Origin: Geobacillus thermoleovorans
GTDB lineage: Bacteria > Bacillota > Bacilli > Bacillales > Anoxybacillaceae
Assembly (NCBI RefSeq): GCF_001610955.1
Contig: NZ_CP014335.1
Coordinates: 1,591,001 to 1,655,000, forward strand
Reading direction: 5' to 3'
DNA: 64,000 bases
Shown here piece by piece: positions 11,073-59,114 of this stretch (within the stretch, counting starts at the first letter, position 1; every line of letters starts with the position of its first letter). Below the pieces are notes generated by a model. It was not told the DNA's origin. It did no database searches and saw nothing but the letters and a program-made list of their open reading frames with translations. Both the position numbers and the translations under genes were made by a program.

Positions 11073-11101
11073 TATCATAGAAAACTATGTTCTAAATAAT
11101 C
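11073..11101 (+). promoter_or_regulatory. Candidate replication terminator (Ter) site, + orientation
   Basis: ACTATGTTCTAAATAATC at 11084-11101 matches 16 of 18 positions of the RTP-binding B-site half of the recalled B. subtilis Ter consensus. The A-site half at 11073-11083 matches only partly. Two close copies lie on the - strand at 57357 and 59086. In B. subtilis forks are stopped when they arrive from the B-site side, so this copy would stop leftward forks. It lies in an AT-rich gap of about 210 bp with no gene. Confidence 0.5.
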
Positions 11102-11194
11102 AAAAAAAACAAATAGAAAAATTTTCAATAATGCGATAAAATAAAACTGCTCTGCCACATGATGAATCTAATCACAGGAGGGGAGAGACCGACC

Positions 11195-12451
11195 ATGCGG
11201 GAAATGGCCCTCGGCCTTGCCGCCTCGTTCTTTTTTGCCGTTACGTTCATATTGAACCGGTCTATGGAACTAGCTGGCGGGAGTTGGACGTGGAGCTCGT
11301 CACTTCGTTTTTTCTTTATGGTTCCGCTGTTGTTTGTCATTCTTCTTGCCCGCCGCAATCTCGGTCCGGTTTGGCGCGACATGAAGCGCCATCCATGGAC
11401 ATGGATCGTCTGGGGGACGGTCGGTTTCGGCCTGTTTTACGCACCGCTCACGTACGCCGCTGCGTACGGGCCAGGGTGGCTTGTAGCCGGCACATGGCAG
11501 TGCACGATCGTCGCCGGCGTCCTGCTTAGCCCGCTGTTTACAGAACAAATCGAAACGCAAAACGGAACTGTGTCCGTGCGCCGCCCGATTGAAAAACAGG
11601 CGCTTTTCATTTCATTTTTTATTTTGCTCGGCGTCGTGCTCGTTCAGTTCCAGCAAGCAGGCCATCTCACATGGGAAGAAATCGCGTTGGGGATCTTTCC
11701 TGTGCTCATCGCCGCCTTTGCTTACCCGCTGGGCAACCGAAAAATGATCGAACATTGTGCCGGACGGCTTGACGCGTTTCAACGCGTATTCGGGATGACG
11801 ATCGCCAGCTTGCCGTTTTGGTTCGTCGTGGCGCTGATTGGATGGGCGACAGCCGGAGTTCCTTCGGCTGGGCAAACGGCGCAGTCGCTCATTGTCGCTA
11901 TCAGCTCGGGCGTTATCGCGACGACGCTTTTTTTCATCGCCACTGACTGGGCGAAAGGAAATGAGCGGAAGCTGGCTGCTGTTGAAGCGACGCAATCCGG
12001 AGAAGTGATTTTTGCCGTTATCGGCGAAGTGCTGTTATTATCGGCTCCGTTTCCGAACGGCTGGGCGTTTGTCGGCTTAGCGGTCATTGTGGCGGGGATT
12101 TGCTGGCATAGTTTTGAGTCTGCAAAGACGGTGAACCGGCCGGCCCCACCCGGTTTCAGCAGCCTGGCGTTCCTATCGCGTGGGGGAAGAGCAGTGAGGA
12201 TGATCCTATATGCGCTGCTGGCCTGCCATGCGGCTGTGATTTATTTCTGGATTAGCGACTGGGACGTGCTTATGACGCCCGTGGGTCTTGTCGTATGGGT
12301 CGGAGGGGTTGCTGTCAGTCTCGCCATCCTTCACTTTCGCCCCAATATTCATCCCAAGCTGCGGTCTATGCTAACAACCATGACGGCGGCTTCGGTGCTC
12401 GCCGCTGTCTGTTCATTGATCATCGAATGGGCGGTGCGCTCGATGCCGTAG
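11195..12451 (+). CDS. EamA/multidrug-efflux-type membrane transporter with C-terminal extension
   Basis: A 418-residue integral membrane protein. The first about 320 residues (FFFAVTFILNRSMELAGGSW near the start, then paired five-helix repeats) resemble the 'multidrug resistance efflux transporter' branch of the drug/metabolite transporter superfamily. About 100 extra residues with three further hydrophobic segments follow a Pro/Arg-rich linker (about 325-345), longer than the usual family length. The ATG at 11195 is chosen because GGAGGGGAGAG precedes it; upstream ATGs at 11159 and 11162 have none. The substrate is unknown. Confidence 0.75.
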   Translation: MREMALGLAASFFFAVTFILNRSMELAGGSWTWSSSLRFFFMVPLLFVILLARRNLGPVWRDMKRHPWTWIVWGTVGFGLFYAPLTYAAAYGPGWLVAGTWQCTIVAGVLLSPLFTEQIETQNGTVSVRRPIEKQALFISFFILLGVVLVQFQQAGHLTWEEIALGIFPVLIAAFAYPLGNRKMIEHCAGRLDAFQRVFGMTIASLPFWFVVALIGWATAGVPSAGQTAQSLIVAISSGVIATTLFFIATDWAKGNERKLAAVEATQSGEVIFAVIGEVLLLSAPFPNGWAFVGLAVIVAGICWHSFESAKTVNRPAPPGFSSLAFLSRGGRAVRMILYALLACHAAVIYFWISDWDVLMTPVGLVVWVGGVAVSLAILHFRPNIHPKLRSMLTTMTAASVLAAVCSLIIEWAVRSMP

Positions 12452-12461
12452 GAACACTTGG

Positions 12462-12968
12462 TCAGTCGTTGCGGCCGTCAGCGGCCCGGAAGGCTTCTGG
12501 AGCAATCCGGCGGCCGACGGCATACATGATCGGCGCGCCGATGGCCATGACGACCAACTCGCTGATGGCCGTCGTCAGCCATGTGAGCCAAAACGGAAAG
12601 CCGAGCGCCAGTTTCAATTCGAAGGCGATAATGGCCATAGTCACAGTAAATGACAGCGTATTGACGGCCATGCGCGCCCAAACGTTTCGGACATACCGCA
12701 TAGAGACGATCGTGATGAGCAGCGCCAACACCGACTGGCCAACGCCGAATACAAGATCATACGCGACAATCGGCGAGAAAAACAAATTGGCAAAAAAGAC
12801 GCCAAGCACGATGCCAACAGCGTATGTTTTGCGGAACACGACCAAGTGATTCAATATTTCTGACACGCGAAACTGAATATTCGTAAAGCCAAACGGCTGA
12901 ATGAGCGTCGTCACCGCGATATACACGGCGGCGATCAAGCCATTTGCCGCTATGATCCGAATGTTCAT
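12462..12968 (-). CDS. queT: QueT-family queuosine-precursor transporter
   Basis: A 168-residue membrane protein with five to six helices. The PFGFTNIQFRVSEILNHLVVF segment (about 23-43, quoted in part: PFGFTNIQFRVSEIL) is characteristic of QueT, the substrate-binding S component of an ECF transporter importing a queuosine precursor. ECF A/A'/T components are expected elsewhere. The ATG at 12968 follows GAGGAGAGGACG. A preQ1 riboswitch often controls queT but none is evident in the roughly 75 bp before this gene. It converges with the EamA-like gene, and its upstream region is shared with divergent chrA. Confidence 0.85.
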   Translation of the reverse strand: MNIRIIAANGLIAAVYIAVTTLIQPFGFTNIQFRVSEILNHLVVFRKTYAVGIVLGVFFANLFFSPIVAYDLVFGVGQSVLALLITIVSMRYVRNVWARMAVNTLSFTVTMAIIAFELKLALGFPFWLTWLTTAISELVVMAIGAPIMYAVGRRIAPEAFRAADGRND

Positions 12969-13043
12969 AACGTCCTCTCCTCGCATTGATGATAATATGA
13001 TTGTAGCACGACAAACGAATGAACGAAAAGGAAGTGAATCTCG

Positions 13044-14252
13044 TTGACCTTGACGGATCAACAAGCAACAAGCCGGCGGCGATCGGTTTGGGAAGTCGGA
13101 AAAACAGCGCTTCTCCTCGGTTTAACGTCATTTGGTGGTCCGGTCGCTCATCTCGGCTATTTTTACGAAGAGTACGTCAAACGAAAAAAATGGATTGACG
13201 AGAAAACGTATGCCGATTTGGTCGCTTTATGCCAATTCCTCCCTGGTCCAGCGAGCAGCCAAGTCGGCATCGGCATCGGATTCATGCGCGCCGGCGTTTG
13301 GGGGGCGTTGGCAGCTTGGCTTGGTTTTACGCTGCCGTCAGCGGTCGCCCTCAGCCTGGTTGCTGTTTGGCTGCAACACCATTCTTGGGGTGACGCCGGC
13401 TGGATGCACGGCTTGCTGTTGGCGGCCGTGGCGGTCGTGGCGCAAGCTGTATGGGAGATGGCGCGCAAATTCGCCTCTAGCCGCCTCGAGGCAACGGTCG
13501 CCATCACAGCGGCGGCCGCTGTGCTTCTTGCGCCGGGCGCGTGGAGCCAAGTAGCCGTCATCGCCGCAGCGGGGGGCATTGGCGCTGTTGGAGTGCGAAA
13601 AAATGTCGCACCTTCTTCGTCTGCGGCAGGCATCCCGCCTTCCATTCGTCGTTCCACCGGTTTGACGTTGCTTTCCTTGTTTGCTGTGTTGCTTGTTGCG
13701 CTGCCGCTCATTCGTACTTGGATCCACTCACCGCTTTTGGCGCTGTTTGATAGCTTTTACCGCGCTGGGGCGCTCGTGTTTGGCGGCGGTCATGTGGTGT
13801 TGCCGCTCTTGGAGGCGGAAGTGGTGCCGCAAGGGTGGGTCACCGCCAATCAGTTTTTAGCCGGCTACAGCGCCGCCCAAGCCGTCCCTGGGCCGCTGTT
13901 TACGTTTGCCGCGTATATTGGAATGGCGGCGTTGGGCTGGAAGGGAGCGCTAGTGGCTACCACAGCCATTTTTCTTCCATCCTTTTTGCTCGTTCTTGGC
14001 GCGTTTCCGTTTTGGCACTGGCTTCGCCGTCATCCACGCTTCCAAGCGGCGCTTGCCGGCATTAACGCCGCTGTCGTCGGGATGTTACTTGCGGCGCTGT
14101 ATGATCCGATTTGGACAAAAGCGGTGAAGGGACCGGCCGATTTGGCGTTTTCCCTTGGGGCTTTTCTTCTTCTTGTTGTGTGGAAGTGGCCAGCATGGGC
14201 GGTCGTCCTTGTTTCGTTCGTCGGCGGATGGCTGCGCGCTTGGCTCGGCTGA
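13044..14252 (+). CDS. chrA: Chromate transporter (ChrA/CHR family, two-domain)
   Basis: A 402-residue inner membrane protein made of two homologous halves. The first half shows LTSFGGPVAHLGYFYEE near 34-50 and LCQFLPGPASSQVGIGIG near 68-85. The second repeats the pattern with FGGGHVVLPLLE and GYSAAQAVPGPLFTFAAYIG. These are the paired G-G-P/H and P-G-P signatures of long-chain CHR proteins, which export chromate or act as anion transporters. It starts at a TTG preceded by AAGGAAGTGA. The gene stands alone without a recognisable chrB-type regulator. Confidence 0.9.
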   Translation: MTLTDQQATSRRRSVWEVGKTALLLGLTSFGGPVAHLGYFYEEYVKRKKWIDEKTYADLVALCQFLPGPASSQVGIGIGFMRAGVWGALAAWLGFTLPSAVALSLVAVWLQHHSWGDAGWMHGLLLAAVAVVAQAVWEMARKFASSRLEATVAITAAAAVLLAPGAWSQVAVIAAAGGIGAVGVRKNVAPSSSAAGIPPSIRRSTGLTLLSLFAVLLVALPLIRTWIHSPLLALFDSFYRAGALVFGGGHVVLPLLEAEVVPQGWVTANQFLAGYSAAQAVPGPLFTFAAYIGMAALGWKGALVATTAIFLPSFLLVLGAFPFWHWLRRHPRFQAALAGINAAVVGMLLAALYDPIWTKAVKGPADLAFSLGAFLLLVVWKWPAWAVVLVSFVGGWLRAWLG

Positions 14253-14710
14253 TCTCCCTAAGCACCATGATGGCGGCTTTTCATTATCGTCCGAAAATGG
14301 ACAACGACGTGTTTGGCTTTGCCGTTGCAATAGCCGGCAGATGCAAATAGATGCATAGATCGATCAACAGCAGCGCCAGCCAAGAGAAACGCTATGAGAA
14401 AATGGATGGTCACAATAGCAGGCGGGAGGTCAAACCAGACAACAAGGGGCCGAGTGCGATCTGCGCCGCAAGCAATCCAGCCGCCGCCGACCGTCGTGGC
14501 GAGCACGATGGCGTCGATCGTCAACCTCGTTTCCTTAACGGCCGGCGCCAGTGTATTAGTGATGAGCTTGATCAAATGGTTTTCGTTTGCATGGAAGCGA
14601 TACCGAGGCGGCAGAAACAAAAGAGCGCCGGCATGGCATAGGGCTGTGCGCTGAAAGGAAAGCTCGCCGCCTGATCCGCAGGCGTATATAGGCAAAAGGA
14701 GGGGGAGCCG
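14253..14710. other. 458-bp stretch without a convincing gene
   Basis: A 145-codon - strand frame (14258-14695) carries two hydrophobic segments but no ribosome site and no family I recognise. Overlapping + strand frames are equally open. The region may hold a decayed small membrane protein gene between chrA and the DUF606 gene. Confidence 0.35.
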
Positions 14711-15145
14711 ATGAAGTGGGTATGGATGCTGCTCGCTCTAACGGCCGGGATGGCTGTCTCCGTACAGGCAGGAGTGAACGGCGGCCTCGGCAAGCGGGTC
14801 GGCGTGTTAGAAGGGGCATTCATTTCCTTTTTGATCGGGACGGTGGTTCTGTTTTTAGTGCAATTGTTTTTAGGCAAGGGAGAATTGCTTGCCATGTTTT
14901 CTGTGCCGAAATGGCAGCTGACGGGCGGCATTCTCGGCGCCTTTTACGTGTTTGTCATGGTGCTGATCGTTCCGAAAGTCGGCGTCGCCAATTCATTGAT
15001 GGCCGTGGTCGCCGGACAGCTCGTGATGAGTTCGATCATTGATCACTTCGGGTTATTCGGCGGACAGCGCATTCCGTTTGACATGACGCGCCTCGCTGCT
15101 ATAGCCTGTTTGTTTTTGGCGCTTTGGCTTTTTTTCCGCAAATGA
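14711..15145 (+). CDS. DMT-type small transporter (DUF606/YdcZ family)
   Basis: A 144-residue protein with about five helices and the family pattern AGMAVSVQAGVNGGLGKRVG near the N-terminus. DUF606 proteins are half-size members of the drug/metabolite transporter group and probably work as dimers; substrates are unknown. AAAGGAGGGGGAGCCG precedes the ATG, a strong ribosome site. The length is typical and the protein looks intact. Confidence 0.85.
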   Translation: MKWVWMLLALTAGMAVSVQAGVNGGLGKRVGVLEGAFISFLIGTVVLFLVQLFLGKGELLAMFSVPKWQLTGGILGAFYVFVMVLIVPKVGVANSLMAVVAGQLVMSSIIDHFGLFGGQRIPFDMTRLAAIACLFLALWLFFRK

Positions 15146-15203
15146 ACAACAGGACTGGCCAAGTTGGTTTAGTTTTCCGTGATCCGCTCATACTAACAAC
15201 AGC

Positions 15204-16040
15204 ATGATCGACTTGGCGGCCGCGCAACAGGCGCTAAAGACCGCACAGGCTCAATATCCATTTCTTTCCCGCCAGGTCCGCGAGCTGGCCGCCTTCCTAT
15301 CGAAAATCAAAAGAGAAACCAACATCGACGAACTGATTCGCTTGTTGAAACAAGATCCTCGGGCGAAAGGGGCGTTTTTAGCTCACCCGGTTGACGTCAA
15401 AACGTTCCGCCTTTTCCCGCTGCCGAACTATGGTTCGGGCATGAATCCATTTTACACGGTGCTGGCCATATGGGTAGGATGTTTGTTGCTTGTTTCCGTC
15501 TTGTCGACGGATCCTTCTTCGTTTTCGGAAGCGAATGAGCGGGAAAGATATGCCGGACGGCTGTTGACCTTTTGGACGCTGAATGCTTTGCAGGCGATGG
15601 TCGTGACAGCTGGAGCGGCTTTCATCTTGCCGAATATTTTCGTCCGTGAGCCGGGATGGTTCATGACGTTCGGCCTTTTGTGCAGCTTTGTCTTTATGGC
15701 GGTGGTTTTTTCGCTTGTTTCCTTGTTCGGCAATGTGGGAAAAGCGATGGCGATTGTGTTGCTCGTCTTGCAAATTGCCGGAGCGGGAGGAACGTATCCC
15801 GTTGAGCTGATTCCTCCGTTCTTTCAGCAATTAAACCCTTGGCTGCCGTTTACCTATGCCATTGATGTCATGCGCGAGGCGGTCGGCGGGATCGTATGGG
15901 AAAATGTTGAGCATGATGTCAAGCGGCTTCTCTTGTTTGCCGTTGCCGCCCTTTTGGCCGGACTTTTGTTGAAAGGCTCATTAAACCCATGGATGCGCGT
16001 GCTGAAGGAAAAAGCTGTTCAAAGTGGTTTGTTTCATTGA
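15204..16040 (+). pseudogene. YhgE/Pip family membrane protein, N-terminally truncated
   Basis: This 278-codon frame matches only the C-terminal third of YhgE/Pip proteins, which are usually 700-900 residues. A short helical region leads into FRLFPLPNYGSGMNPFYTVL and then about five or six transmembrane segments, including the AGAGGTYPVELIPPFFQ segment (quoted in part) and LPFTYAIDVMREAVGG, both hallmarks of the C-terminal ABC-2-like domain. The N-terminal membrane anchor and the large extracellular helical region are missing, and upstream DNA encodes another complete gene. The ATG at 15204 has no good ribosome site. It is most likely a deletion remnant. Confidence 0.8.
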
Positions 16041-28336: not shown

Positions 28337-28338
28337 CG

Positions 28339-37566: not shown

Positions 37567-37700
37567 CTATTTCTGACGCAAGGCATCCACCCCCGTTGCT
37601 GCAGTCACTGGCTTCCGCATCGTAAACGTCAGCTCCGGATCAAGCACGGCTAACGCCGGGCGGAGAGCGGCATCTTTTAGCGTCAATTGAATCGTCAACG
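37567..37700 (-). pseudogene. Remnant of an iron-containing alcohol dehydrogenase gene
   Basis: Read on the - strand, about 44 codons include LRPALAVLDPELTFTM and AATGVDAL. These are diagnostic of the group III Fe-dependent alcohol dehydrogenases, where P-A-x-A-I-L-D-P-E-L-T-x-T-L-P and A-x-G-x-D-A-L-x-H occur just before the metal-binding His. The frame stops right after VDAL, before that His. No start or other domains are found nearby, so only an internal scrap remains. The rest of the 650-bp gap (37437-38013) is AT-rich and empty apart from the katG promoter region. Confidence 0.7.
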
Positions 37701-37915
37701 ATGTTCTTAGTGCTGCGTTTGCCTTTTTCAGCTAGCGGCGTTTTTCATGAAACAAGCCATCGTCTTTTATATATTAAAAAATAACTGAATTCTAAATCAA
37801 TTGAAACATAAATTAATAGTGGCATACCTTGGACTGGTATAGCAACACAAATAAAAATAATAAAAGGTATCTTTTATTATTTACTATCAAATATAAATTT
37901 AGTATAATTCTAATG

Positions 37916-37930
37916 TACAAATCATTATCA
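37916..37930 (+). promoter_or_regulatory. Fur/PerR-like box upstream of katG
   Basis: The 15-mer ending ATCATTATCA matches 12 of 15 positions of the Fur-type 7-1-7 repeat (TGATAATNATTATCA) and 11 of 15 of the PerR box. It lies 84 bp before the katG ATG. PerR control of a peroxidase would be expected in Bacillaceae, but the site is AT-rich and could be chance. Confidence 0.35.
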
Positions 37931-37968
37931 TTTTTGACTGGCAACAAAACAGTTAGAAATGGTAATGA

Positions 37969-40221
<2,253 letters not shown>

Positions 40222-40236
40222 TAAAGGGAAGAAAAA

Positions 40237-40273
40237 CAAGGCAGAGGGAGAAGATTCCCTCTGCCTCGTTTTT
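40237..40273 (+). terminator. Rho-independent terminator of katG
   Basis: The AGGCAGAGGGA stem pairs with TCCCTCTGCCT and is followed by CGTTTTT. Confidence 0.85.
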
Positions 40274-40361
40274 GTAGAATACCAAACGGCTGCATAGGCA
40301 AAGAAAATCTTCACCGTAAAAACTGATTTTGCGAAGAGCTAGGGGAAATATTACTAAATAG

Positions 40362-41729
40362 CTGTAGATGAGCAAATTCACTGACATAAATTGACAACTA
40401 AACAAAAAAGGAGACATGAACCCGATTCCTTGGTTAGAATAGATGTACCACCAACTATCCACAAGGAGGTTCATGTCTCATGAATAGATTAGCACATCAC
40501 CAAGGAATCCACAAGTTTTTCTTCACGCTGGGGTTGACGCTGCAGCTTTCCAAACCGGTCATCAAGCATCTCATTCATATTGTCGATGCCTTGACCACCA
40601 AGGGATTCTCGGGAACATTGACTGATATTCATTACTGGAGCTTTCATCCGAATCATCGAACGACGCTCCGTCACTTTTTCACGAAAAGCCCTTGGAACGA
40701 GGAAAGGCTGCTTGGGAAGCTTCAAGAGTGGATCCTTTCCCAGGTCGAACGACTGGCCAAACGGAAGAATCAACCCCTTTTTGTTTCGATTGATGATACG
40801 ATTTGCCAAAAAACAAAGCCTTCGTCACGGGCTGTGCACGCCATTCAAGGGTGCGACTGGCACTACTCGCATAAAGATCATCAATCGGTCTGGGGGCATT
40901 CGCTCGTTTGGCTGATGGTGCACACCTTCACGCAGGCGTTCCCATTTGCGTTCCGCCTGTATGACAAGAAAGCGGGAAAAAGCAAGATCGACCTGGCGAT
41001 CGAGATGCTTTCCTCGCTCAAGGTGAAGCGGGCTCAGCCGGTGTATGTGCTCATGGATTCGTGGCATCCGTCTAAGAAGCTCATCGAAGCCTGTCTGAAA
41101 CAGGGATTCCATGTCATCGCGATGCTCAAGACGAACCGGATTCTCTACCCGAAAGGCATCGCCATCCAAGCCAAGCAGTTTGCCCGCTATATCGAGTCCA
41201 AAGACACCCGCCTCGTCACGGTGGGGCAGGAGCGTTATCGCGTGTATCGCTATGAGGGGGCCATCCATGGCCTCGATGACGCGGTGGTGCTGCTGGCTTG
41301 GAAGGCGGATCAGCCGCTGACGCCGGAACATCTTCATTGCATCTTGAGCACCGACCGGGAACTCGGGGACGAAGACATCTTGCGTTACTACGCCCAGCGC
41401 TGGACGATCGAGTGCTTTTTCCGGCAGGCGAAAGATCAACTGAAGCTGGATGGATACCGCGTTCGCCACATTCGGGCGGTGAAACGGTATTGGGCGGTGG
41501 TGCTGTTGGCCTGCGTGTACAGCATCGCCGAATCCCGACAAAACCTCTCCACCGGGCTGGAGCTTCTTCGGTCGCGGAAAGACCACAGCGTCGTCGAGTT
41601 CATTTATGACGCTGCAAAGCAAGATATTCCCATTGATGTGATCAAAAAACAGCTCCGTATCGCGTAAGGGGTACCCTGTTTGTCTCTCTAACCATGGAAA
41701 TTATTGTAATGAAAAATGCTCATCTACAG
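40362..41729 (+). mobile_element. Insertion sequence with 13-bp terminal inverted repeats (IS4/IS701 type)
   Basis: CTGTAGATGAGCA at 40362-40374 is repeated inverted at 41717-41729, enclosing a single intact transposase gene, for about 1.37 kb in total. I see no convincing target duplication in the bases immediately outside. It is inserted between katG and a second, damaged element. Confidence 0.85.
40480..41667 (+). CDS. DDE transposase (IS4/IS701 type)
   Basis: A 395-residue RNase H-fold transposase. Catalytic acids appear in FVSIDDTICQKTKP, VLMDSWHPSKK and in YYAQRWTIECFFRQAK, which is the Y-x2-R-x3-E-x6-K signature of the IS4 group. AAGGAGG lies before the ATG. The frame is intact, so the element may still move. 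Confidence 0.92.
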   Translation: MNRLAHHQGIHKFFFTLGLTLQLSKPVIKHLIHIVDALTTKGFSGTLTDIHYWSFHPNHRTTLRHFFTKSPWNEERLLGKLQEWILSQVERLAKRKNQPLFVSIDDTICQKTKPSSRAVHAIQGCDWHYSHKDHQSVWGHSLVWLMVHTFTQAFPFAFRLYDKKAGKSKIDLAIEMLSSLKVKRAQPVYVLMDSWHPSKKLIEACLKQGFHVIAMLKTNRILYPKGIAIQAKQFARYIESKDTRLVTVGQERYRVYRYEGAIHGLDDAVVLLAWKADQPLTPEHLHCILSTDRELGDEDILRYYAQRWTIECFFRQAKDQLKLDGYRVRHIRAVKRYWAVVLLACVYSIAESRQNLSTGLELLRSRKDHSVVEFIYDAAKQDIPIDVIKKQLRIA

Positions 41730-41845
41730 AAAGTTAGATAAATTATCTAAGCAGATGCAGAAAGGAATCTTCGCTAAAAATTTCAACCATCCTGCGAATA
41801 AAAGAAAAAAAAGTTTAAGGCAACAATATTCCATTAATCAAATAA

Positions 41846-42853
41846 TCAAATAGATTCTAACTTCCTGCATCGGGATAACGCCCATGCCGCCTCGCATAAC
41901 GCGGATTTAATATGAGGATTACCCTTTACCGTTCGTGTACTTTTGCGTTTTCCAGCGCTTTCGTGATTTCCCGGGGCCACCCCAGCCCAAGAAGCGAGGC
42001 GCTGCGGTGTCGGGAACTGTCCCATATCCACTCCGATTTCGGCGATGATGACGGCGGCGGTTTCCTTTTTCACTCCAGGAATCGTCATCAGAAGATCCAC
42101 TTCCTGTTGATACGGTTGTAAGAGATGGTCGATGCGTTGGTCCATCTCCTGAATCAAGCTTTCCAAATACTCGATGTGCTTCCACGATTGGCGAATCATG
42201 AACAACTCATGTTCGGTTAATGTCCCAAAGAGCGATTCCTGAATTTGTTGCTTTTTCCCTTTCATTCTTCCGTGAAGGCAAGCGTCGATATCGGCTTCTT
42301 CGATGTACCCCTGTTCCATTAAACGGGTCAAGAGTTTTCGGCCCGATACTCCGAAGATGTCGGAAATCACCGTACCCAGCTTGATATTGGAACACTCCAA
42401 TACTTTATGAATTCGGTTTTTTTCCGCAATCAATTGACCCACCCACTTTTTGCGTAAACGGGTCAAGTCCCGCAATTCTCGAATTGGCGCGGGTGGCACA
42501 AAACTCTTTTCAATCAGTCCATAACGCAATAATTTAGCGATCCATTCCGCATCGGATACATCCGTTTTTCTCCCTGGGACATTCTTGATTCGCTGAGCGT
42601 TGGCCAAGGTAATGTCAAAGTAGTCCTCTAAAATGTTAAAGACCGGTTTCCAGTAAACCCCCGTACTCTCCATCGCTAGATGAGTGATTTCTCGATCCTC
42701 GAGCCATTTCAGGAGGCGAAACAAGTCTTTGGTAAACGTCGAAAACGTTTCGATCTCCTTTTGAATGTGGTCTTCTTCTCCCCAAAGCGCACAAACGACA
42801 ATCGTTTTGGCATGAACATCTAAACCTGCGCAACGATGATAAAGCACATCCAT
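41846..42853 (-). pseudogene. IS110-family transposase, C-terminally truncated
   Basis: The 335-codon frame encodes the N-terminal RuvC-like DEDD domain (GLDVHAKTIVVCALWG at about 10-25, AMESTGVYWKP near 59-69, TDVSDAEWIAKLL near 97-109) and most of the C-terminal Tnp20 domain (IPGVKKETAAVIIAEIG, then WAGVAPGNHESAGKRKS). It stops at SRCRKLESI, where relatives continue for roughly 70-90 further residues. The ATG at 42853 with GGAGTCC before it is the natural start; the frame continues upstream without homology. Probably inactive. Confidence 0.85.
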
Positions 42854-44358
<1,505 letters not shown>

Positions 44359-44360
44359 AA

Positions 44361-44407
44361 AATAAAATAAAAACGCGCAGCCTCTTGATTCTCATTCAAG
44401 AAGCTGC
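44361..44407 (-). terminator. Rho-independent terminator of the 64-aa gene
   Basis: The 12-bp stem 44377-44388 with 44396-44407 is followed on the - strand by TTTTTATTTTATTTT. Confidence 0.85.
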
Positions 44408-44469
44408 ACGTTACCCACTGCGCGTCGGCAGCTGCAGGGACCGCATGATCTCATCCTTTCTCCTTTCGT

Positions 44470-44664
44470 TTAGGCAATATCCGTTTGACGATAGCGGACG
44501 CCTTTATACCGAACGCGAACTGGCACGCCTTTTTCTTGCTTATGTTTCACCAGAAGCCGTTGGGCTTTTGAAAAGGCTTCCATCATCCCAGATGCCGGAA
44601 TGGCCTCTTCCCACACAATCGTTTTCCCTTGGACTGTGTAGAAGGAAAAGACATACTGTTTCAC
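44470..44664 (-). CDS. Small protein of unknown function (64 aa)
   Basis: A 64-residue basic protein (KQYVFSFYTVQGKTIVWEEA at the start; ending KGVPVRVRYKGVRYRQTDIA, in part). It begins at a GTG with GGAGGTG before it and has its own terminator. Codon use is like the host, unlike the AT-rich gene before it. I do not recognise a family. Confidence 0.65.
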   Translation of the reverse strand: MKQYVFSFYTVQGKTIVWEEAIPASGMMEAFSKAQRLLVKHKQEKGVPVRVRYKGVRYRQTDIA

Positions 44665-44770
44665 CGTCTTCACCTCCCTATTATTATTATAATCAAAGAC
44701 TGTTTTTCCTAAACACAAAAACTGTTACAATTATGTTAACATTTTCTCTTCGGCGTTTCCGCAACAAATA

Positions 44771-44820
44771 AAGGTGTCCCAATCCTTCCTAAAAGAGATC
44801 GGAACACCTTTTTCTTTTTG
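44771..44820. terminator. Terminator-like hairpin
   Basis: The stem AAGGTGT (44771-44777) with 44804-44810 and inner pairing is followed by TTTCTTTTT on the + strand. No + gene leads into it. A related hairpin occurs at 50570. Confidence 0.55.
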
Positions 44821-44902
44821 CGCATATGTGGCTGTTGGACCTTGCGGGTTGTGATGACCTTGCCGGTTAGCGCCGCAATCCGATTTAGCACAGTTCAGTT
44901 TC

Positions 44903-44942
44903 TTAGAAAAAGAAAACCGGCATCATGATTCAATGCCGGTTT
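44903..44942 (-). terminator. Rho-independent terminator overlapping the DHH gene stop
   Basis: The stem 44933-44941 with 44915-44923 contains the stop codon and is followed on the - strand by TTTTCTTTTTC. Confidence 0.8.
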
Positions 44943-46164
44943 GTTGCTTGTATTGTTTGACGGCCGCTTTATAGTCGGCTTGAATGGCATCTTTGTCTCG
45001 TCCGAGCCGAACGCTTAAAAAGTCGAGCACGGCTGCATCATGGGCAAGGCCAGCGGCAAACTGCCGCTTCAGCCAGCGTTCGCCGGCGATTTCCTCTGGG
45101 AACGTATGGGTCTCTCCCCCATCGGCATACACGTTCCAACCTTGAGCGGTTTTACGACTCAGCCACCATTGGCCATGGTGATTTGTCCAAAACACTCCTT
45201 CGGCCTCGTCTTTTTTGTTCAATTGGTTTTGTTCCGCATCACCGTATACCGGCAGAAGCGGGAACGTCTCGACGACAAACAGCGGAAATGTTGTATCATC
45301 GATCAAACAGCCGGACGCCTTGGGATGGCCGCCGCCACCGAATTGCAGGGCAAACTCAGCGACGTTGACGTCATCATGAATGGTGCGAAAGCCAATATGT
45401 TTCGTCCCCATGTTGACTAAAGCGATCAAGTCAAGATGAGGATAACGCTTGGATAACGCATTGCCCAATTCCGACAAATGGCGCTCGGCAAAGACGACGC
45501 CGATGCAATAGTCACCAAGCCAGCGCTGAACAAGCTGTTTTTGCTTTTGCCGAATGTAACGCTGAATTTTCTTCTCTTCCATATCGAGAAGCAGCTCTTC
45601 CGTCTCGGTCAAGGAGAACGGTTCTCTGGAGGCGAGCCGCTCGCTCATCGTCTCCCAAAAGCCGTCAAGCCCGAAAATCGTCAACAAATCATTCAGCCGC
45701 TTCGCTTGCAAATTCCCATTCTCTTCCCATTCCCACGTGTCGTATTGGCGGACGAGCTCGACGAACCCATCTAGCGTTTCATTAGGTGCGAGTTTTCCCT
45801 CGCGGACGAGATAGTCGTAAAAGAGCGAGGTGGCGCACGTCTTTTTGCCATCATCCCTCACCGGCACCACCTGTCCCCACGGGTAGTCATTGAAATGAAG
45901 CGCCGTCACGTGGTGGTCGATCACTTGCACATGGCCGCCGCGCGCCGCCCGTTCGGCGAGTTGCTGTTCCACTTCCTTGCCGACGGCCAAGTCGGTGATA
46001 AACAACATGGCGCCGTTGGCCTCGTCGCTTTGCAAGAATTGGATGACCCGTTCATCCAAATTGCGATAGGAACAAAACGAAATGTTCACCTCGGCAAACG
46101 CCAGCTTCGCGAGCAATCCGCAACCGATGCCGTCTAGATCGCTGTCAGTGAATAATTTGATCAT
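44923..46164 (-). CDS. DHH-family phosphoesterase
   Basis: A 413-residue protein with the DHH/DHHA1 arrangement: a metal-binding TDSDLDGIGC near 6-15, FITDLAV, DHHVTALH near 88-95, and the substrate loop GGGGHPKASGC in the second domain. Relatives hydrolyse short RNA (nanoRNase), cyclic dinucleotide products or similar phosphodiesters. About 110 extra residues after the DHHA1 domain (Trp-rich, YADGGETHTFPEE) are unusual and may bind another ligand. ATG at 46164 follows AAGGTGGG; an upstream in-frame ATG at 46203 overlaps the preceding gene. It is last in a - strand run with the NorD/NorQ-like pair. Confidence 0.85.
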   Translation of the reverse strand: MIKLFTDSDLDGIGCGLLAKLAFAEVNISFCSYRNLDERVIQFLQSDEANGAMLFITDLAVGKEVEQQLAERAARGGHVQVIDHHVTALHFNDYPWGQVVPVRDDGKKTCATSLFYDYLVREGKLAPNETLDGFVELVRQYDTWEWEENGNLQAKRLNDLLTIFGLDGFWETMSERLASREPFSLTETEELLLDMEEKKIQRYIRQKQKQLVQRWLGDYCIGVVFAERHLSELGNALSKRYPHLDLIALVNMGTKHIGFRTIHDDVNVAEFALQFGGGGHPKASGCLIDDTTFPLFVVETFPLLPVYGDAEQNQLNKKDEAEGVFWTNHHGQWWLSRKTAQGWNVYADGGETHTFPEEIAGERWLKRQFAAGLAHDAAVLDFLSVRLGRDKDAIQADYKAAVKQYKQQTGIES

Positions 46165-46181
46165 GGGGTCCCACCTTTTTG

Positions 46182-48086
46182 TCACAAACTTTTTTGCAAC
46201 CACGTTTTCAAGAGCGGCAACAGCCGATCCGGCAACTCGCTCACATGCGGAACAAAGACGCGGAAGCGACCATAGATGTTTTCAATCGTCCGCCGCGTTG
46301 ACTCATCGTCGGCCCCGTGGCCTAAAAAGAGATTGACGACCTCAATGCCGCGGCGGCGCGCTTCGGCGACTGCTTCGTGCGTATCGATGATGCCGTTTTG
46401 TTCATATCCGTACGCGGCGGGTTCGCCGTCAGAGAAGACGAGCAGCACTTTTTGTGCTTCCGGGCGCTTGAGGAGCTGTTCGGTCATCCAGCGAATCGCC
46501 AATCCATCGCGATTATCTTCATGCGGCTCGAGCTGCAGGATCGCCGGGCCGCTCGACGGCTCAAGCGAGCGATGGAATGAGACCGCCATCTGCAAATAGT
46601 TCGGCTGACGCGAAGCGGCTGCTTCGTTCGCATCTTCCCAAAATCCGACAATTTGGTGCGGCACGCGCAACGTTTTCAGCACCTCATGGCAAAGAACGAG
46701 CCCGGTTTTCGTCTCTTCCATTTTGTCATGCATCGAAGCCGAGCAATCGACAAGCAGGCCGAAGACTGCATCAAACCGCCGCGTCGGCTCGCCTTTTTTG
46801 TAAAACAAGCGCGGCCGCTCATCAGTGAAAAACGACACCAATTGTTTGCGCAGCCGACCGACGGGCAAGTTCGTGCGCCAAGCGGAGCGCTTGTGTTCAA
46901 GCCATTGTTCCATGATGCGCACAAGCCGTTTTCGGTACGGCGCCACCGCCGCCTGTTTGGCGCGGTATTGCTCAAGATGCGCGAGGTTTGGCGACGAAGG
47001 AAGAAGCACAAGATCGGCTTGGCGGTTGGCCTCGCCATACGGCGCACTGTTTCCAGCCGGCGGCTGTTCGCTGAAGGATGCTTGCGCTTCCAGGCCATAC
47101 TCGTTTCGCGCCGTCGGCCGAGACGTTCCTTTCACGACGGCCAGCGCCTGATCACCGTCTTCACCCGGCCTCGCCTTATCGCTGATGATCTCGGTGCGGC
47201 TGCCTCGTTCGAGCTCAAAGCGGAGAAAGCTTCCACCCGCCCGGCTCGTTTCCCGATGCCACGTTGGCAGCACTTGCCGCTTGGCCTCTCCATCGGCCTC
47301 TTGAAGGGCATCGCGGTTTTCCAATGGGTTGGTCCGTTTGAGATCTTGAAGCGTCATCGTTTTCTCGTCCGCATCATCCTCAACGATTGGCAGCGATGTA
47401 TAGGCATTGACCATATCATGAGGCAGCACGTCCTTCATCAGTTCCACAACGGCGAACGCCCAGTCCGCCACCTCGGCTGTCGAGGAAGCATCAAAAAATT
47501 GCGGCCATAACGTTTCAAGGCGCGCCTGCACCGCTTCATCCGCCATCGGAGCCAGCGGCGCATCATCAAGCGGCGAATCGGCCGTGAGCCGCAAATACAT
47601 CCCCGCCAAAAACTGATCAGCCCAAGCGCCGCGCGTTCGATTCGCTTGCCATTGCTGAGTGAAGTAGCGGCGGTACAAGCGGCGGCGCGTGCGGAACCAT
47701 CGCTTCATCCCGGGACGTTCCCGCTCACAGACGGCTTCCAAGCGAAGATCTTCAGCGAATGTAAACAGCTGTTTGGAAAGCTTGGAGAGCGGTCGGGATT
47801 CCACCGCATGTCGGAAGGCGCGAACCGCCAATCGGTCGGTGTGCCGATACGTGCCGATGATGCGCAAGCCGACGTCGCTTTTCATTGCCGTTTCCCGCTC
47901 CAATGGTGGATACCCATCCCAAAAATGGCTGACGTAAACGACCGGCTTGACACAATGCACGCCGGAATGGGCGGCGAACTGGATGGCAACGTCGCGGCGG
48001 CGCATGAGCGTTTGGGCGAGGTCAGAAAGCTGCATGACCAAACTCGAGTCGACCGTTCGGTCATTGAACATCATAAACCGCTCCAT
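46182..48086 (-). CDS. VWA-domain protein, NorD/CoxE-like
   Basis: A 634-residue protein with a charged N-terminal region and a C-terminal von Willebrand A domain (about 435-634) whose metal-ion site reads DCSASMHD, with SDGEPAAYGYE later. This matches the NorD-like 'nitric oxide reductase activation protein' family, which works with a MoxR-type AAA+ ATPase to insert or activate metal centres. The ATPase gene lies 10 bp upstream on the same strand. AGGAGG precedes the ATG at 48086; the frame is open upstream only through the ATPase gene in another frame. No NO reductase is in the window. Confidence 0.87.
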   Translation of the reverse strand: MERFMMFNDRTVDSSLVMQLSDLAQTLMRRRDVAIQFAAHSGVHCVKPVVYVSHFWDGYPPLERETAMKSDVGLRIIGTYRHTDRLAVRAFRHAVESRPLSKLSKQLFTFAEDLRLEAVCERERPGMKRWFRTRRRLYRRYFTQQWQANRTRGAWADQFLAGMYLRLTADSPLDDAPLAPMADEAVQARLETLWPQFFDASSTAEVADWAFAVVELMKDVLPHDMVNAYTSLPIVEDDADEKTMTLQDLKRTNPLENRDALQEADGEAKRQVLPTWHRETSRAGGSFLRFELERGSRTEIISDKARPGEDGDQALAVVKGTSRPTARNEYGLEAQASFSEQPPAGNSAPYGEANRQADLVLLPSSPNLAHLEQYRAKQAAVAPYRKRLVRIMEQWLEHKRSAWRTNLPVGRLRKQLVSFFTDERPRLFYKKGEPTRRFDAVFGLLVDCSASMHDKMEETKTGLVLCHEVLKTLRVPHQIVGFWEDANEAAASRQPNYLQMAVSFHRSLEPSSGPAILQLEPHEDNRDGLAIRWMTEQLLKRPEAQKVLLVFSDGEPAAYGYEQNGIIDTHEAVAEARRRGIEVVNLFLGHGADDESTRRTIENIYGRFRVFVPHVSELPDRLLPLLKTWLQKSL

Positions 48087-48096
48087 GCCGAGCCTC

Positions 48097-48972
48097 CTAT
48101 TCGTCAAACCACGTTTCAGCGATGTTGCGCACTGCGGCCCGTTCCCGTTCATCGTCGAGCTTATCGACGATGCTTCGTTCAATGGCCCGCAATGGCGGCA
48201 TGTACGCCGCCAAATCGCACGCATCCAACAAAGCGCGCACCGAAGCCGCTTCCTCGGCGATTTGTCCGTTTCGCACCTGCACAAGCAGATCAGCCGACAG
48301 GGCGACGAAACGATCGATCAACGTTTCATCCGTTAATGTAGTTTGCGCCAACAATACCGATTTTAATGTTTCTCCTTGCACATACGGCACATTGATGACG
48401 ACAAACCGGTTTTTGAGCGCCTCATTGAGCGGTACGGTGCCAATATAGCCTTCATTGATCGCGGCGATGACGCCAAATGTCGGTTTCGCCTGCACGAGAT
48501 CGCCGGTGAGCGGATTCGTGAGCCGCCGCCGGTAGTCAAGGACGCTGTTTAAAATCGGCAGCGTCTCTGGTTTCGCCATATTAATTTCGTCAATATATAG
48601 CAAATGCCCTTTTGTCATCGCCTGGATGACTGGTCCGGGCACGTACTCGATCACCGCCTGGCTGTTTTTGTGCACGATCGTCTTAAAACCGAGCAATGCT
48701 TCGGCGTCTAAGTCCACGGAACAGTTGATGCTGTGCATCGGTTGACCAAACAAAGCGGACAACGTTTCAGCAAGCCGCGTTTTTCCCGATCCGGTCGGGC
48801 CTTTTAAGAGCACGTTTTTCCCAAGCGCGAGCGCAATGGCGGCATCGTGCACGATCGCCTCATCTGCCGCCTTGTACCCGCCCGCTCCAATCAACGCGCG
48901 ATCCGGATCGCGGCGGAACAGTTCTTTTCGCTTTTCCATTTCTTTCGTGACCGTCAACGGCCATGTTCCCAT
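48097..48972 (-). CDS. MoxR/NorQ-type AAA+ ATPase
   Basis: A 291-residue AAA+ protein with Walker A GPTGSGKT at 58-65, Walker B LLYIDEINMA near 124-133, and NEALKNRFVVINVP with the arginine finger. It belongs to the CbbQ/NirQ/NorQ clan of chaperones that remodel metalloenzymes together with a VWA partner, here the next gene. GAGAGGAAG precedes the ATG. The pair is likely one operon with the DHH gene after it. Confidence 0.9.
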   Translation of the reverse strand: MGTWPLTVTKEMEKRKELFRRDPDRALIGAGGYKAADEAIVHDAAIALALGKNVLLKGPTGSGKTRLAETLSALFGQPMHSINCSVDLDAEALLGFKTIVHKNSQAVIEYVPGPVIQAMTKGHLLYIDEINMAKPETLPILNSVLDYRRRLTNPLTGDLVQAKPTFGVIAAINEGYIGTVPLNEALKNRFVVINVPYVQGETLKSVLLAQTTLTDETLIDRFVALSADLLVQVRNGQIAEEAASVRALLDACDLAAYMPPLRAIERSIVDKLDDERERAAVRNIAETWFDE

Positions 48973-49046: not shown

Positions 49047-49074
49047 ACTAGACCATAAATATATTATGTAAATA
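49047..49074. other. Candidate dif site (XerC/XerD chromosome-dimer resolution site)
   Basis: The right half contains ATATATTATGTAAA (49059-49072), identical to 14 bases spanning the centre and XerD-side arm of B. subtilis dif as I recall it. The XerC-side arm is divergent (4 of 11 positions). The 28-bp site sits in a 126-bp AT-rich island, 25 bp past the rtp stop, at a place where gene orientation along the chromosome changes. The dif assignment is inference from recalled sequence. Confidence 0.65.
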
Positions 49075-49098: not shown

Positions 49099-49473
49099 TC
49101 AACCGAAGTTGTCCTCAATCGCCTTGCGAATGAGCGCCGCGCACCGATCAAGCTCCGCTTTGAGCTGGCGTTTGTACAGCTTCGCCTTTTCCTGTCCGCC
49201 CTCGGCGAACCGATAGTAAACGACTTCTTGGTACTTCATTCCCTCTTTTTTCTGTTTCACTTGTTTTAAAATGCCGTCTTCGATCAAATCGTGCAGCGCC
49301 TTATACACTTCGGAGTGGTTCGGCCGGTAGCCGAACGGCTTGAACTCTTGGCGCAATACATCAAGCAGCTTCAGCCCGTAGAGCCGCTCCTGTTCGGTGA
49401 GCGTAATCAAATACAATTTTAAAAACGCACGTTGTTTTAACAGAAAACCGCTGGGCGTCCGTTTTTCTCCCAT
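49099..49473 (-). CDS. rtp: Replication terminator protein (RTP) homologue
   Basis: A 124-residue winged-helix protein, almost the length of B. subtilis RTP (122). The N-terminal region SGFLLKQRAFLKLYLITLTE and the dimerisation tail LYKRQLKAELDRC match RTP closely from memory. RTP dimers bind Ter sites in a polar way and arrest replication forks by contacting the helicase. The domain also belongs to the PadR-like winged-helix set, so an automatic label might read PadR, but the resemblance is specifically to RTP. AAGGAGGG precedes the ATG at 49473; the longer frame to 49542 is not supported. See the Ter-like sites at 11073, 57357 and 59086. Confidence 0.9.
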   Translation of the reverse strand: MGEKRTPSGFLLKQRAFLKLYLITLTEQERLYGLKLLDVLRQEFKPFGYRPNHSEVYKALHDLIEDGILKQVKQKKEGMKYQEVVYYRFAEGGQEKAKLYKRQLKAELDRCAALIRKAIEDNFG

Positions 49474-49582
49474 AGGCTTTTTCCCTCCTTCCCTACGGAT
49501 GAAATTTCGCTCTTTGGGCGGCCAAATCCTGCTTGTCTTCATTATACCATGCGGGAAAGGAAAAATCCTCTCCCGCTTGGGT

Positions 49583-50485
49583 TCAATAAAACACGATCGT
49601 TTTGTTTCCGTGGATGATGACCCGGTCTTCCAAATGCCACCGAAGCGCCCGGGCGAGCACCGTTTTTTCGATCAGTCGGCCGATCCGCTTTAAGTCGTCC
49701 GGATGGTGGCGGTGGTCCACGCGGGCGACGTCCTGCTCAATGATCGGCCCTTCATCCAAATCGTCGGTGACGTAGTGCGATGTGGCGCCAATCAATTTGA
49801 CGCCGCGCTCATACGCCCGCTCATACGGACGCGCGCCAATAAAGGCGGGCAAAAATGAGTGGTGGATGTTGATGATCCGTCCCGGGAATTCAGCGACAAA
49901 CGCCGGCGACAAAATTTGCATGTAGCGGGCAAGCACGATGGTGTCGATCTGATAGTCGCGAAGCAGACGGATTTGTTCGGCTTCGGCGTCCGCTTTCGTT
50001 TCTTTCGTCACCGGAATATGCACATAAGGGATGCCAAATGACTCGACCGTCTCGCGCAAGTCGGGGTGGTTGCTGATGACAAGGGCGATGTCGGCGATCA
50101 GCTCTCCCGCCTGCCATTGCCAAAGAAGTTCAAGCAGACAATGCTCGGCTTTGGAGACAAAAATCGCGATTCGCCGAATGTCGTTGTGCAGCCGAAGCTG
50201 CCAACGCATCTCAAATTCAGCAGCGATCGGGGCAAACGCCGCTTCGATCTCTTCTTTTCGCTCGGCGATGTTTGGACAGTCGAACTCCAAGCGGAGAAAA
50301 AACGTCCCTCCCTCAGGATCGGTCGAATATTGGCTCGATTCAACGATATTCGCCCCTTGTTCGTACAGAAACGACGTCACTGCCGCGACGATGCCCGGGC
50401 GATCTGGGCAGGAGATAAGGATTCGAGCGCGCTGCTCGTAACCTTGCAAAAATGATTGCCAGCGATGTTGGCGAAATGTCGTCAT
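49583..50485 (-). CDS. purU: Formyltetrahydrofolate deformylase
   Basis: A 300-residue enzyme that hydrolyses 10-formyl-THF to THF and formate, balancing one-carbon pools and supplying formate for PurT. An N-terminal ACT domain (ARILISCPDRPGIVAAVTSF) is followed by the formyltransferase-like domain with NIHHSFLPAFIGARPY and the catalytic Asn-His-Asp set. GGGAGAGAC precedes the ATG at 50485; the frame extends 14 codons further without support. Confidence 0.94.
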   Translation of the reverse strand: MTTFRQHRWQSFLQGYEQRARILISCPDRPGIVAAVTSFLYEQGANIVESSQYSTDPEGGTFFLRLEFDCPNIAERKEEIEAAFAPIAAEFEMRWQLRLHNDIRRIAIFVSKAEHCLLELLWQWQAGELIADIALVISNHPDLRETVESFGIPYVHIPVTKETKADAEAEQIRLLRDYQIDTIVLARYMQILSPAFVAEFPGRIINIHHSFLPAFIGARPYERAYERGVKLIGATSHYVTDDLDEGPIIEQDVARVDHRHHPDDLKRIGRLIEKTVLARALRWHLEDRVIIHGNKTIVFY

Positions 50486-57338: not shown

Positions 57339-57356
57339 TTGTTTTTTTGGGTTATT

Positions 57357-57385
57357 GATTATTTAGAACATTGTTTGTGACATGA
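57357..57385 (-). promoter_or_regulatory. Candidate Ter site, - orientation (half-site)
   Basis: The - strand 18-mer ACAATGTTCTAAATAATC (57374-57357) is one base different from the site at 11084, matching 15 of 18 consensus positions; the A-site half is poor. Orientation is opposite to the 11-kb copy. It lies in the 408-bp gap between the thioesterase and NhaC genes, which is otherwise only a promoter region. Confidence 0.4.
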
Positions 57386-57599
57386 AATATTGTCGCGAAT
57401 CCAGTACGTTGCACGAAAGGATGAAAATCTCTTTCAATTAAGTTGAATTTTTGGTTTACACTTCGCCGATTGCCTGACACATTAGATTGCATCCGCATGT
57501 ATCGAAGTGCAAATGGTAACGAACAATTGGAACCTATATAGTTTTGACATTTTCAGGGTAGATAAAAAAGCCCGGCGAGGGCAGACGGGGCGTCTGCGG

Positions 57600-59012
57600 T
57601 CAACCGGCCCAAAGCGGCAAAAGAACGTATCCTGCAAGCGACACGCCGGCGCAAAGGAGAGAGAGGCGCAATTTGTATTTCGCATAGCTCATCAAGTCCA
57701 TATCCATAATGGCTGCCGTTGTAATCGTCGTATCGCCAAGCGGCGAAGCAAAGGCGCCAAACGTCCCGCTCGCAAACACGGCGCCGACTGTCACCTCGAG
57801 CGGCGCCCCGGTCGCATGGGAAAGCGTGACGCCAAGCGGCATCAAAATGCCCCACGTTCCCCATGAAGAACCGATAAAGTATGATAAAAACGATCCGACC
57901 AAAAACACGGCCGCTGGCACGAATGCCCCCGGCAGCCATGTGCCGAACGTCGACGACACGTACTCCGCAAATCCGAGTTCCCCCGCCACCGCCGAGACCG
58001 CCCATACGAGAACGAGCATGCCGATCGGCGCCATCAGCTCGTTTCCTCCGGCAAAAAAGTGGTACGTCAACTCTGAGAGCGATTGTCGGCGCCACAAATA
58101 AAACATCATCGACAAAAGGATGGTCACAAACAGCGCCAACAGCATCGCCCATGTCGCATCGGCCGCGGAAAACGCCTCCCACCAATTCTCTGCCCCGCGT
58201 TTCCTCCCGTCGTACACGAAAAAGGCAAACGTCAGCGCGATTAACAGCGCCAGCGGGACAAACAAGTGCAACGGCTCCCCGTTGATCAGCGCCAGCTCCT
58301 TGCGCAATCCGAGCCCGTGCAGTGTATTCGTTTCCCCTTCTCCTTTTTTCGCCCGCGGTTTGCCGATCCGGATGTTCAACATCGTCGTCAACACCCCGAC
58401 GGCCAGAGCGACAATCGCAAACAAGTTGTACGGCAGGCTGCGCAAAAACACGTCATACGGCGATTCGTGAATGTCGTTTTGCTCAAGCGCCGCGGCGACA
58501 ACAGAAGTCATAAAGCCGACGAACGCTGTCGCCGCTGGCAAAAGCACGATGATCGGCTCGGTCGAGACGTCGATCATGTACGCCATGCGGCGGCGGTCGA
58601 TGCGAAACTGGCGAAGGACCGCTTTCATCACTGGTCCAAGGAGCATAATGCGAAACATCGGCATAAAAAACGTCACCGGCACCGTCAGCCAAACGAACAA
58701 CAAAATCCCCCGCTTCGAGCGGATGCGGCCGGAGAGTCTCTCGACAAACCCTTTGATCCCGCCGGTAATTTGCATCATGCCGACAAGCGAACCGAACAAA
58801 TACAAAAACGCGGCCACCTTCATATGCTCCGGATCGGTCAGGGCGTGAAGAACAGCGGAAACAGCGCGCTCAATCGCGCCGACAGCCGACCACTCAAGGC
58901 AAAACGCTCCGACGAGCAATCCGGCCACGAGGCCGGGCAAAATTTCTTTCAGCCATACCGCCAACGGAATGATGAGCAGAAAAGGCAACAGCGACCACCA
59001 TGTTCCTTCCAC
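57600..59012 (-). CDS. Na+/H+ antiporter, NhaC-type
   Basis: A 470-residue membrane antiporter with about eleven to twelve helices and the NhaC/ArsB-like segments SWGTWGILMPLGVTLSHATG near 390-409 and SPLGDTTITTAAIMDMD near 430-446, the conserved Asp/Thr pair of the family. It exchanges cytoplasmic Na+ (or a substrate such as malate/lactate in MleN-type relatives) for protons. Within the NhaC superfamily several subfamilies transport organic acids, so the ion assignment is provisional. Confidence 0.85.
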   Translation of the reverse strand: MEGTWWSLLPFLLIIPLAVWLKEILPGLVAGLLVGAFCLEWSAVGAIERAVSAVLHALTDPEHMKVAAFLYLFGSLVGMMQITGGIKGFVERLSGRIRSKRGILLFVWLTVPVTFFMPMFRIMLLGPVMKAVLRQFRIDRRRMAYMIDVSTEPIIVLLPAATAFVGFMTSVVAAALEQNDIHESPYDVFLRSLPYNLFAIVALAVGVLTTMLNIRIGKPRAKKGEGETNTLHGLGLRKELALINGEPLHLFVPLALLIALTFAFFVYDGRKRGAENWWEAFSAADATWAMLLALFVTILLSMMFYLWRRQSLSELTYHFFAGGNELMAPIGMLVLVWAVSAVAGELGFAEYVSSTFGTWLPGAFVPAAVFLVGSFLSYFIGSSWGTWGILMPLGVTLSHATGAPLEVTVGAVFASGTFGAFASPLGDTTITTAAIMDMDLMSYAKYKLRLSLLCAGVSLAGYVLLPLWAG

Positions 59013-59085
59013 GTCGGCGCCTCCTTTGCGATGATGTTGTTACCAAGAAGGATAGCCATAATGCAGTTTTTTTATGATTTTCATT

Positions 59086-59114
59086 GATGATTTAGAACAT
59101 AGTTTTATTTATAA
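59086..59114 (-). promoter_or_regulatory. Candidate Ter site, - orientation
   Basis: The - strand 18-mer ACTATGTTCTAAATCATC (59103-59086) matches 16 of 18 positions of the Ter B-site half; the A-site half at 59104-59114 matches about half. Its orientation would stop rightward forks. It is intergenic, in an AT-rich stretch between nhaC and the treR terminator. Confidence 0.5.

Follow-up and report, generated by a model that had tools for sequence, protein, structure and literature searches.

The subject of this analysis is a 64,000-bp stretch of DNA from Geobacillus thermoleovorans (hereafter the window), C1:1591001-1655000 of genome G000, which lies within a 3,450,609-bp chromosome; the second contig of the assembly, C2, is a plasmid. 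The window holds the replication terminus of this chromosome. It holds rtp, the gene for the replication terminator protein (RTP), the chromosome dimer resolution site dif and three sites resembling the Ter sites of Bacillus subtilis, which lie in opposed orientations around rtp and dif. These features are listed below in window positions, with the B and A halves of each Ter site scored against the consensus.

11084..11101 (C1:1602084-1602101), + strand: left inner Ter, B half rightward; B 14/14, A 9/14
41000..44500, strand not applicable: region of GC skew sign change with the cumulative maximum, from the skew computation
44251..44278, - strand: dif, canonical Firmicute type, chromosome dimer resolution site; 2 mismatches to the genus pattern, 0 expected
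49099..49473, - strand: rtp, replication terminator protein, 124 amino acids, single copy in the genome
57357..57374 (C1:1648357-1648374), - strand: first right Ter, 1 mismatch to the 18-mer; B 14/14, A 6/14
59086..59103 (C1:1650086-1650103), - strand: second right Ter, 1.7 kb behind the first; B 13/14, A 8/14

Ter sites, rtp and dif at the skew switch

The Ter 18-mer pattern matched three times in the window against 0.02 matches expected, and none of 100 shuffles reached three. The 18-mers at 11084 (+), 57357 (-) and 59086 (-), on which the original prediction of a terminus was built, are thus present far above chance. The same prediction had named a close RTP homologue at 49099-49473, and this gene indeed encodes the sole RTP homologue of the genome: its product scored 178.8 bits against PF02334 in a profile search, matched B. 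subtilis RTP structures with E values down to 1.2e-50 (1bm9) and was 69% identical to B. subtilis sequence P0039.

The dif site had been placed at 49047-49074, next to rtp. This candidate was rejected, as it shares the XerD side only and not the XerC arm, while a full canonical dif exists at 44251-44278 (-), near the cumulative skew maximum and between the inner Ter sites. The genus dif pattern was present in 14/14 genomes, once in each except G011, which has a second copy on contig C5. Among 60 of 80 named rtp loci scanned, all eight from Geobacillus and Parageobacillus had a full dif 5-7 kb downstream from the start of rtp, and 11/15 from Anoxybacillus had one within 10 kb. A B. subtilis-like dif pattern had no match in the window or the genome, because the Geobacillus spacer differs. 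On contig C5 of G011, the segment C5:5029-10517 holds the dif copy together with three rtp-like gene fragments in broken frames. We did not retain these as a second rtp, since a contig that also carries a dif copy is probably redundant and of low quality.

GC skew within the window flips sign near 42-44 kb. Sampled over the whole genome in 49 stretches, the window included, it was positive in all stretches up to 1639 kb, then negative to 3342 kb apart from a single value of +0.021 (3150 kb), before returning to positive at 3420 kb, so that the genome-wide skew check suggested with the original prediction places the switch inside the window. The gene dnaA lies at 3406.7 kb and its antipode at 1681 kb; the chromosome arms up to dif measure 1679 kb and 1771 kb, the clockwise arm being 92 kb shorter. 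The terminus is therefore opposite oriC, at the skew switch and with dif inside, as in a B. subtilis-type trap. Long open reading frames (ORFs) are mostly on the + strand before about 41 kb and mostly on the - strand after it when judged by eye, with exceptions on either side, in agreement with the strand bias first described. No DnaA box was found in C1:1-3000, because dnaA is located at 3.41 Mb. A second DnaA_N domain match (47 bits) occurs apart from dnaA in a 140-amino-acid frame at C1:1775392-1775574 (-).

Distribution of Ter sites in the genome, genus and order

The genome was scanned for the Ter pattern with up to three mismatches, using the reversed pattern as a control. Matches occurred at 12 places, 10 chromosomal and two on the plasmid contig. 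Seven of the chromosomal places have at most two mismatches (1532974 +, 1534593 +, 1602084 +, 1648357 -, 1650086 -, 1983288 - and 2031799 -); they span 0.5 Mb and switch orientation between 1602 and 1648 kb, flanking dif. The clustering and the change of orientation at dif that the original prediction expected of a scan with up to two mismatches were thereby recovered. Its list of sites held for the three in the window and was incomplete, as four more (1532974, 1534593, 1983288 and 2031799) fall outside. Likewise, the opposed sites of its trap of about 48 kb exist, but they are only the innermost pair, 46 kb apart, of the seven sites spanning 0.5 Mb. All seven share a conserved B half (13-14 of 14 positions) and a weaker, partly inverted A half (6-9 of 14). 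Some outer sites are paired at distances of 1.5-2.8 kb; the pairs in this genome are those at 1533/1535 and 1648/1650 kb.

The arrangement extends to the genus. Each of the 14 Geobacillus genomes encodes a strong RTP and carries 4-8 Ter sites (at most one mismatch), the reversed pattern giving none. These amount to 94 sites, 64 of which share a contig with dif, and 64/64 follow the rule of + sites to the left and - sites to the right of dif (55/55 in the nine assemblies whose dif contig has sites on both sides). The 30 sites left out lie on other draft contigs, on the second contig of G008 or on plasmid contigs.

At the level of the order, 120 genomes were sampled with a stricter 18-mer (at most one mismatch), and a PF02334 score above 100 bits, a threshold of our own, was taken as a strong RTP. 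PF02334 exceeded the Pfam cut-off in 34/120 genomes, and 22 of these were above 100 bits. The stricter 18-mer occurred in 9/22 strong-RTP genomes (39 places, the doubled G000 plasmid place included) and in 3/98 of the remaining genomes, at one place each (Fisher p = 7e-6). All eight genomes with two or more Ter places have a strong RTP.

A probable fork trap of the RTP-Ter kind

According to excerpts of PMC13220808 and PMC10331603, a B. subtilis fork stops on meeting the B side of a Ter site. By analogy, RTP would bind Ter sites in which a short core separates a strong B half (GTTCTAAATMATCA) from a weak A half, stopping forks that reach the B side and letting through those that reach the A side. 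The left inner Ter (11084..11101) is predicted to block leftward forks, as would the other + sites left of dif, and the first right Ter (57357..57374), 13 kb beyond dif, is predicted to block rightward forks, as would the other - sites on that side. With + sites to the left and - sites to the right of dif, forks could therefore enter the region and not leave it. The clockwise fork, its arm being shorter by 92 kb, should be the first to pass dif; it would then wait for its counterpart 13-15 kb past dif, at 57.4 or 59.1 kb, and the outer Ter sites would act as back-ups.

A terminus with an RTP-Ter fork trap explains the window best and, with binding, polarity and arrest carried over from B. subtilis, is very probably the right interpretation. 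The trap first proposed thus stands as far as its opposed RTP-type sites around rtp and dif are concerned, given the 64/64 dif-linked sites and the skew switch, with its dif moved to another position. Several observations weigh on the other side. The A halves match weakly (6-9 of 14), and the same is true of the chromosomal sites of relatives. The three chromosomal matches with three mismatches (835077 -, 1688596 + and 3079715 +) are all wrongly oriented; we treat them as chance, because they are no more numerous than the five matches of the reversed control. The 64 concordant sites do not count independent events, since sites within the genus are largely orthologous, and one G007 site scored as consistent is 1.2 Mb from dif. 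The stricter 18-mer had no match in 13/22 strong-RTP genomes, which may use other site dialects.

Two other explanations were considered for the chromosomal sites. The trap could be inherited but weak, or idle in part, with RTP bound too poorly at some or all of its sites to stop forks, which would meet near the antipode by timing alone. We regard this as improbable: the weak A halves would fit it, as would the report that not every B. subtilis ter site blocks in vivo (excerpt of PMC13220808) and the absence of a Ter upstream of rtp in Geobacillus, so that the level of RTP may be controlled differently, but the B halves of the seven sites keep 13-14 of 14 positions and the sites are retained in 14/14 genomes. 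That the 18-mers are operators at which RTP or a PadR-like relative regulates transcription, with their clustering reflecting the location of regulated genes, is very improbable: the rtp product does have a further match to the PadR regulator family (31.1 bits) and the left inner Ter sits 58 bp ahead of an ORF start, but operators would predict neither the strict orientation switch at dif (64/64) nor the position opposite dnaA.

We conclude that the proposed chromosomal trap is a further case of the known RTP-Ter kind, without a Ter before rtp. It shares with B. subtilis a close RTP (69% identity), sites with a strong B and a weak A half, and opposed sites around rtp and dif opposite oriC. It differs in its GTTC core in place of GTAC, in the lack of a Ter before rtp and in the spacing of the innermost pair, 46 kb as against about 0.1 kb in B. 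subtilis (excerpt of PMC13220808). With Tus-ter of Escherichia coli it has in common nested, oppositely oriented one-way barriers, while protein and site are unrelated (same excerpt).

The GTTC core is the commoner one

The Ter core of Geobacillus is GTTC and not the GTAC of B. subtilis, a substitution of TTC for TAC that had been proposed to be specific to Geobacillus. This proposal did not hold. In the fetched flanks of the 80 named rtp loci, Ter cores were GTTC only in 22 loci, GTAC only in nine and GTGC only in one, with none by the strict pattern in 48. The GTTC core was found also in Anoxybacillus, Metabacillus, Peribacillus, Sediminibacillus and others, whereas the GTAC-only loci all belong to Bacillus (9/9), to species of the B. 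subtilis group and to unnamed ones. As a positive control, the same scan recovered the opposed Ter pair beside rtp in that group. Since GTTC is commoner among rtp loci, the GTAC core marks the B. subtilis group and not the whole family, and these counts suggest that the GTAC of the textbooks represents that group's dialect. GTAC and GTTC users differ at 13 RTP residue positions, among which the protein of the window has S54, K58, Q74, M79 and Y86. The residue differences are a lead only, because the comparison (9 against 22 of 80 loci) opposes a single clade to all others.

The surroundings of rtp lack a promoter Ter

Two further intervals adjoin rtp.

49474..49973, - strand: 500 bp upstream of rtp, without Ter; best match 9/16 positions
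49047..49074, + strand: conserved element, AT-rich and XerD-arm-like, flanked by rtp and an AAA ATPase gene; not dif

A Ter lies 91-131 bp before rtp in 13/18 loci of Parageobacillus, Anoxybacillus and Thermolongibacillus (one of the five others has just 46 bp upstream), and in 0/6 named Geobacillus loci. Across the 14 genomes of the genus the nearest Ter is 7.8-10.0 kb from rtp. The first description of this terminus had missed this absence. In B. subtilis, rtp is autoregulated through a promoter ter (excerpt of PMC10331603). A Ter in the rtp promoter is a trait of the B. subtilis gene and unnecessary for fork arrest; with no Ter before rtp, promoter autoregulation in the B. subtilis form is not expected in Geobacillus, where this link therefore seems to be missing.

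The AT-rich element formerly taken for dif is kept after rtp in 9/14 genomes (at most three mismatches) and is visible by eye in more; the next gene past it encodes the AAA ATPase. We read it as an operator-like or relict element. A longer palindromic version occurs further from rtp in some Anoxybacillus loci (L096-L098 and L112).

Ter-type sites on plasmids

Plasmid contig C2 (L014-L016) duplicates its first 16 kb at its end (1-15951 against 32738-48708, 99.7% identical), as in an unclosed circular assembly. Two Ter sites on this plasmid were therefore rejected, the end repeat counting features twice, and the plasmid is a circle of about 32.7 kb with one Ter.

When 72,556 plasmid records were searched with a 34-base Ter query, 33 matched (Priestia 14, Geobacillus 12, Parageobacillus 4, others 3), and rtp is present in the three named genera, which account for 30/33 matched records. 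We scanned 18 plasmid sequences, 14 whole and four partial; nine are named records that appear in a Rep_3 similarity list, five came from Ter matches and four were contigs of the genomes analysed. Exactly one site (at most one mismatch) was found in 16 of them, and the reversed control gave none in 699,617 bases. Of the 13 Geobacillus-group records in the Rep_3 list, 11 entered the scan, two of them as contigs that agree in length and site position; nine have the site and two have weakened copies of it. The two unscanned records have Ter matches in the plasmid search, one inside an annotated integrase gene. Among the five Parageobacillus records of the list one had a Ter-like match and four had none in the plasmid searches.

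Phage records gave 31 matches to the Ter query, at chance level with E values of 1-4 in the 30 listed. Three viral contigs have exact 19-mer Ter matches (L159:838-856, L160:3421-3439 and L161:1374-1392), two of them with identical flanks. A search for GTAC-type Ter on B. subtilis-group plasmids matched six records and gave no support. The two best matches, PLSDB records L231 and L230 of the B. subtilis group, were rejected as plasmids: they are linear, carry chromosomal terminus genes (rtp-proC-proB-gltB in one; msrA and cge genes in the other) and are probably mislabelled chromosome pieces. The other four were two weak matches on 215-kb plasmids (E 4), one in Methanothermococcus and one in Acinetobacter.

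Plasmid sites adjoin replication genes of unrelated families

In plasmids encoding a 439-amino-acid replication protein (rep439), Ter lies 232-325 bp past the gene and on the opposite strand in 13/13 cases, at 311-325 bp in 12 of them. It persists as a conserved block where the flanks have diverged, with two copies weakened to 2 and 3 mismatches. Near these sites a full DnaA box was found in 0/13 plasmids and short box-like words in 2/13.

A second family is that of the RepM plasmids of Priestia, of which we sampled 14, nine found through Ter and five picked by rep alone (184 RepM records exist, three of them outside Priestia). In 12/14, a nearly symmetric Ter (B 13/14, A 11-13/14) has its core 57-60 bp past the rep stop codon; among the plasmids picked by rep alone the site was present in 4/5 and absent from one. 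Plasmid pBM300 has a weak site at the RepM position and a strong one 1.56 kb further on. The 12 sites score 24-26 of 28, as compared with 20 for the best of 2800 shuffled flanks (single-base shuffles). Four conjugative plasmids of Geobacillus and Parageobacillus carry a common symmetric site adjoining a gene for a 280-amino-acid protein without assigned function; for rep439 and this protein no similarity was found. The near symmetry of such plasmid sites contrasts with the chromosomal sites, whose A halves match at 4-9 of 14 positions. Because the RepM and conjugative plasmid sites are nearly symmetric, their polarity is uncertain.

That the plasmid Ter-type sites are a conserved sequence tied to replication genes is well supported by these comparisons. 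A precedent is plasmid R1, which carries terRL and terRR, a host fork barrier close to its origin (excerpt of PMC10331603). Here too a host-type Ter is fixed near a replication gene (rep439 13/13, RepM 12/14), and, as for Tus-ter on R1, the Geobacillus and Priestia sites are close to replication genes. Unlike the two sites of R1, they are RTP-type, mostly one per plasmid, and located by nearness to rep genes and not by mapped origins. We rather favour the interpretation that plasmids of RTP-bearing Bacillaceae use the host RTP as their own fork barrier, unrelated families each having kept Ter by the replication gene. On this view the Geobacillus rep439 plasmids have a polar site at about 315 bp, the Priestia RepM plasmids a nearly symmetric one with a double B half. 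Such a Ter would make replication one-way or stop rolling-circle over-replication.

For the plasmid sites, the alternative is that they are RNA hairpins after the rep gene, or sites of some plasmid function, that merely resemble Ter. The position of the RepM sites 57-60 bp past the stop codon would suit a hairpin, as would the symmetric nature of some changes in their two arms, and of two RepM-type sites folded as RNA one gave a strong structure (-17.6 kcal/mol, z -4.45). The second, however, folds no better than shuffles (z -1.03), and a search for terminator-like sites called none. The B half stays at 13/14 in the 12 RepM plasmids while A varies between 11 and 13, the sites of the rep439 plasmids are asymmetric and lie antisense to their replication gene, and 30/33 matched records come from three rtp-bearing genera. 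We consider this alternative unlikely, though with a real share of the probability, and a host RTP barrier remains the interpretation that we prefer.

Significance

These findings extend the RTP fork trap, so far described chiefly in B. subtilis, to a genus of thermophiles in which the predicted arrest sites are clear. Searches by title and abstract in open-licence papers found no reports on Geobacillus Ter sites or on RTP sites on plasmids, which is weak evidence given that scope. The plasmid-borne RTP-type sites are the surprising part of the findings, with a putative role as fork barriers. According to excerpts of PMC6549158, rtp is reported only in a subgroup of Bacillales, and tus has been proposed to be domesticated from plasmids. 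If plasmids do use RTP in this way, they would provide the RTP counterpart of Tus-ter on R1 and raise the question, as for tus, whether RTP began on plasmids. The near-symmetric plasmid sites lend themselves to the study of how RTP arrest becomes polar, and plasmids with a conserved host-type Ter by the replication gene could be used to probe the purpose of fork traps.

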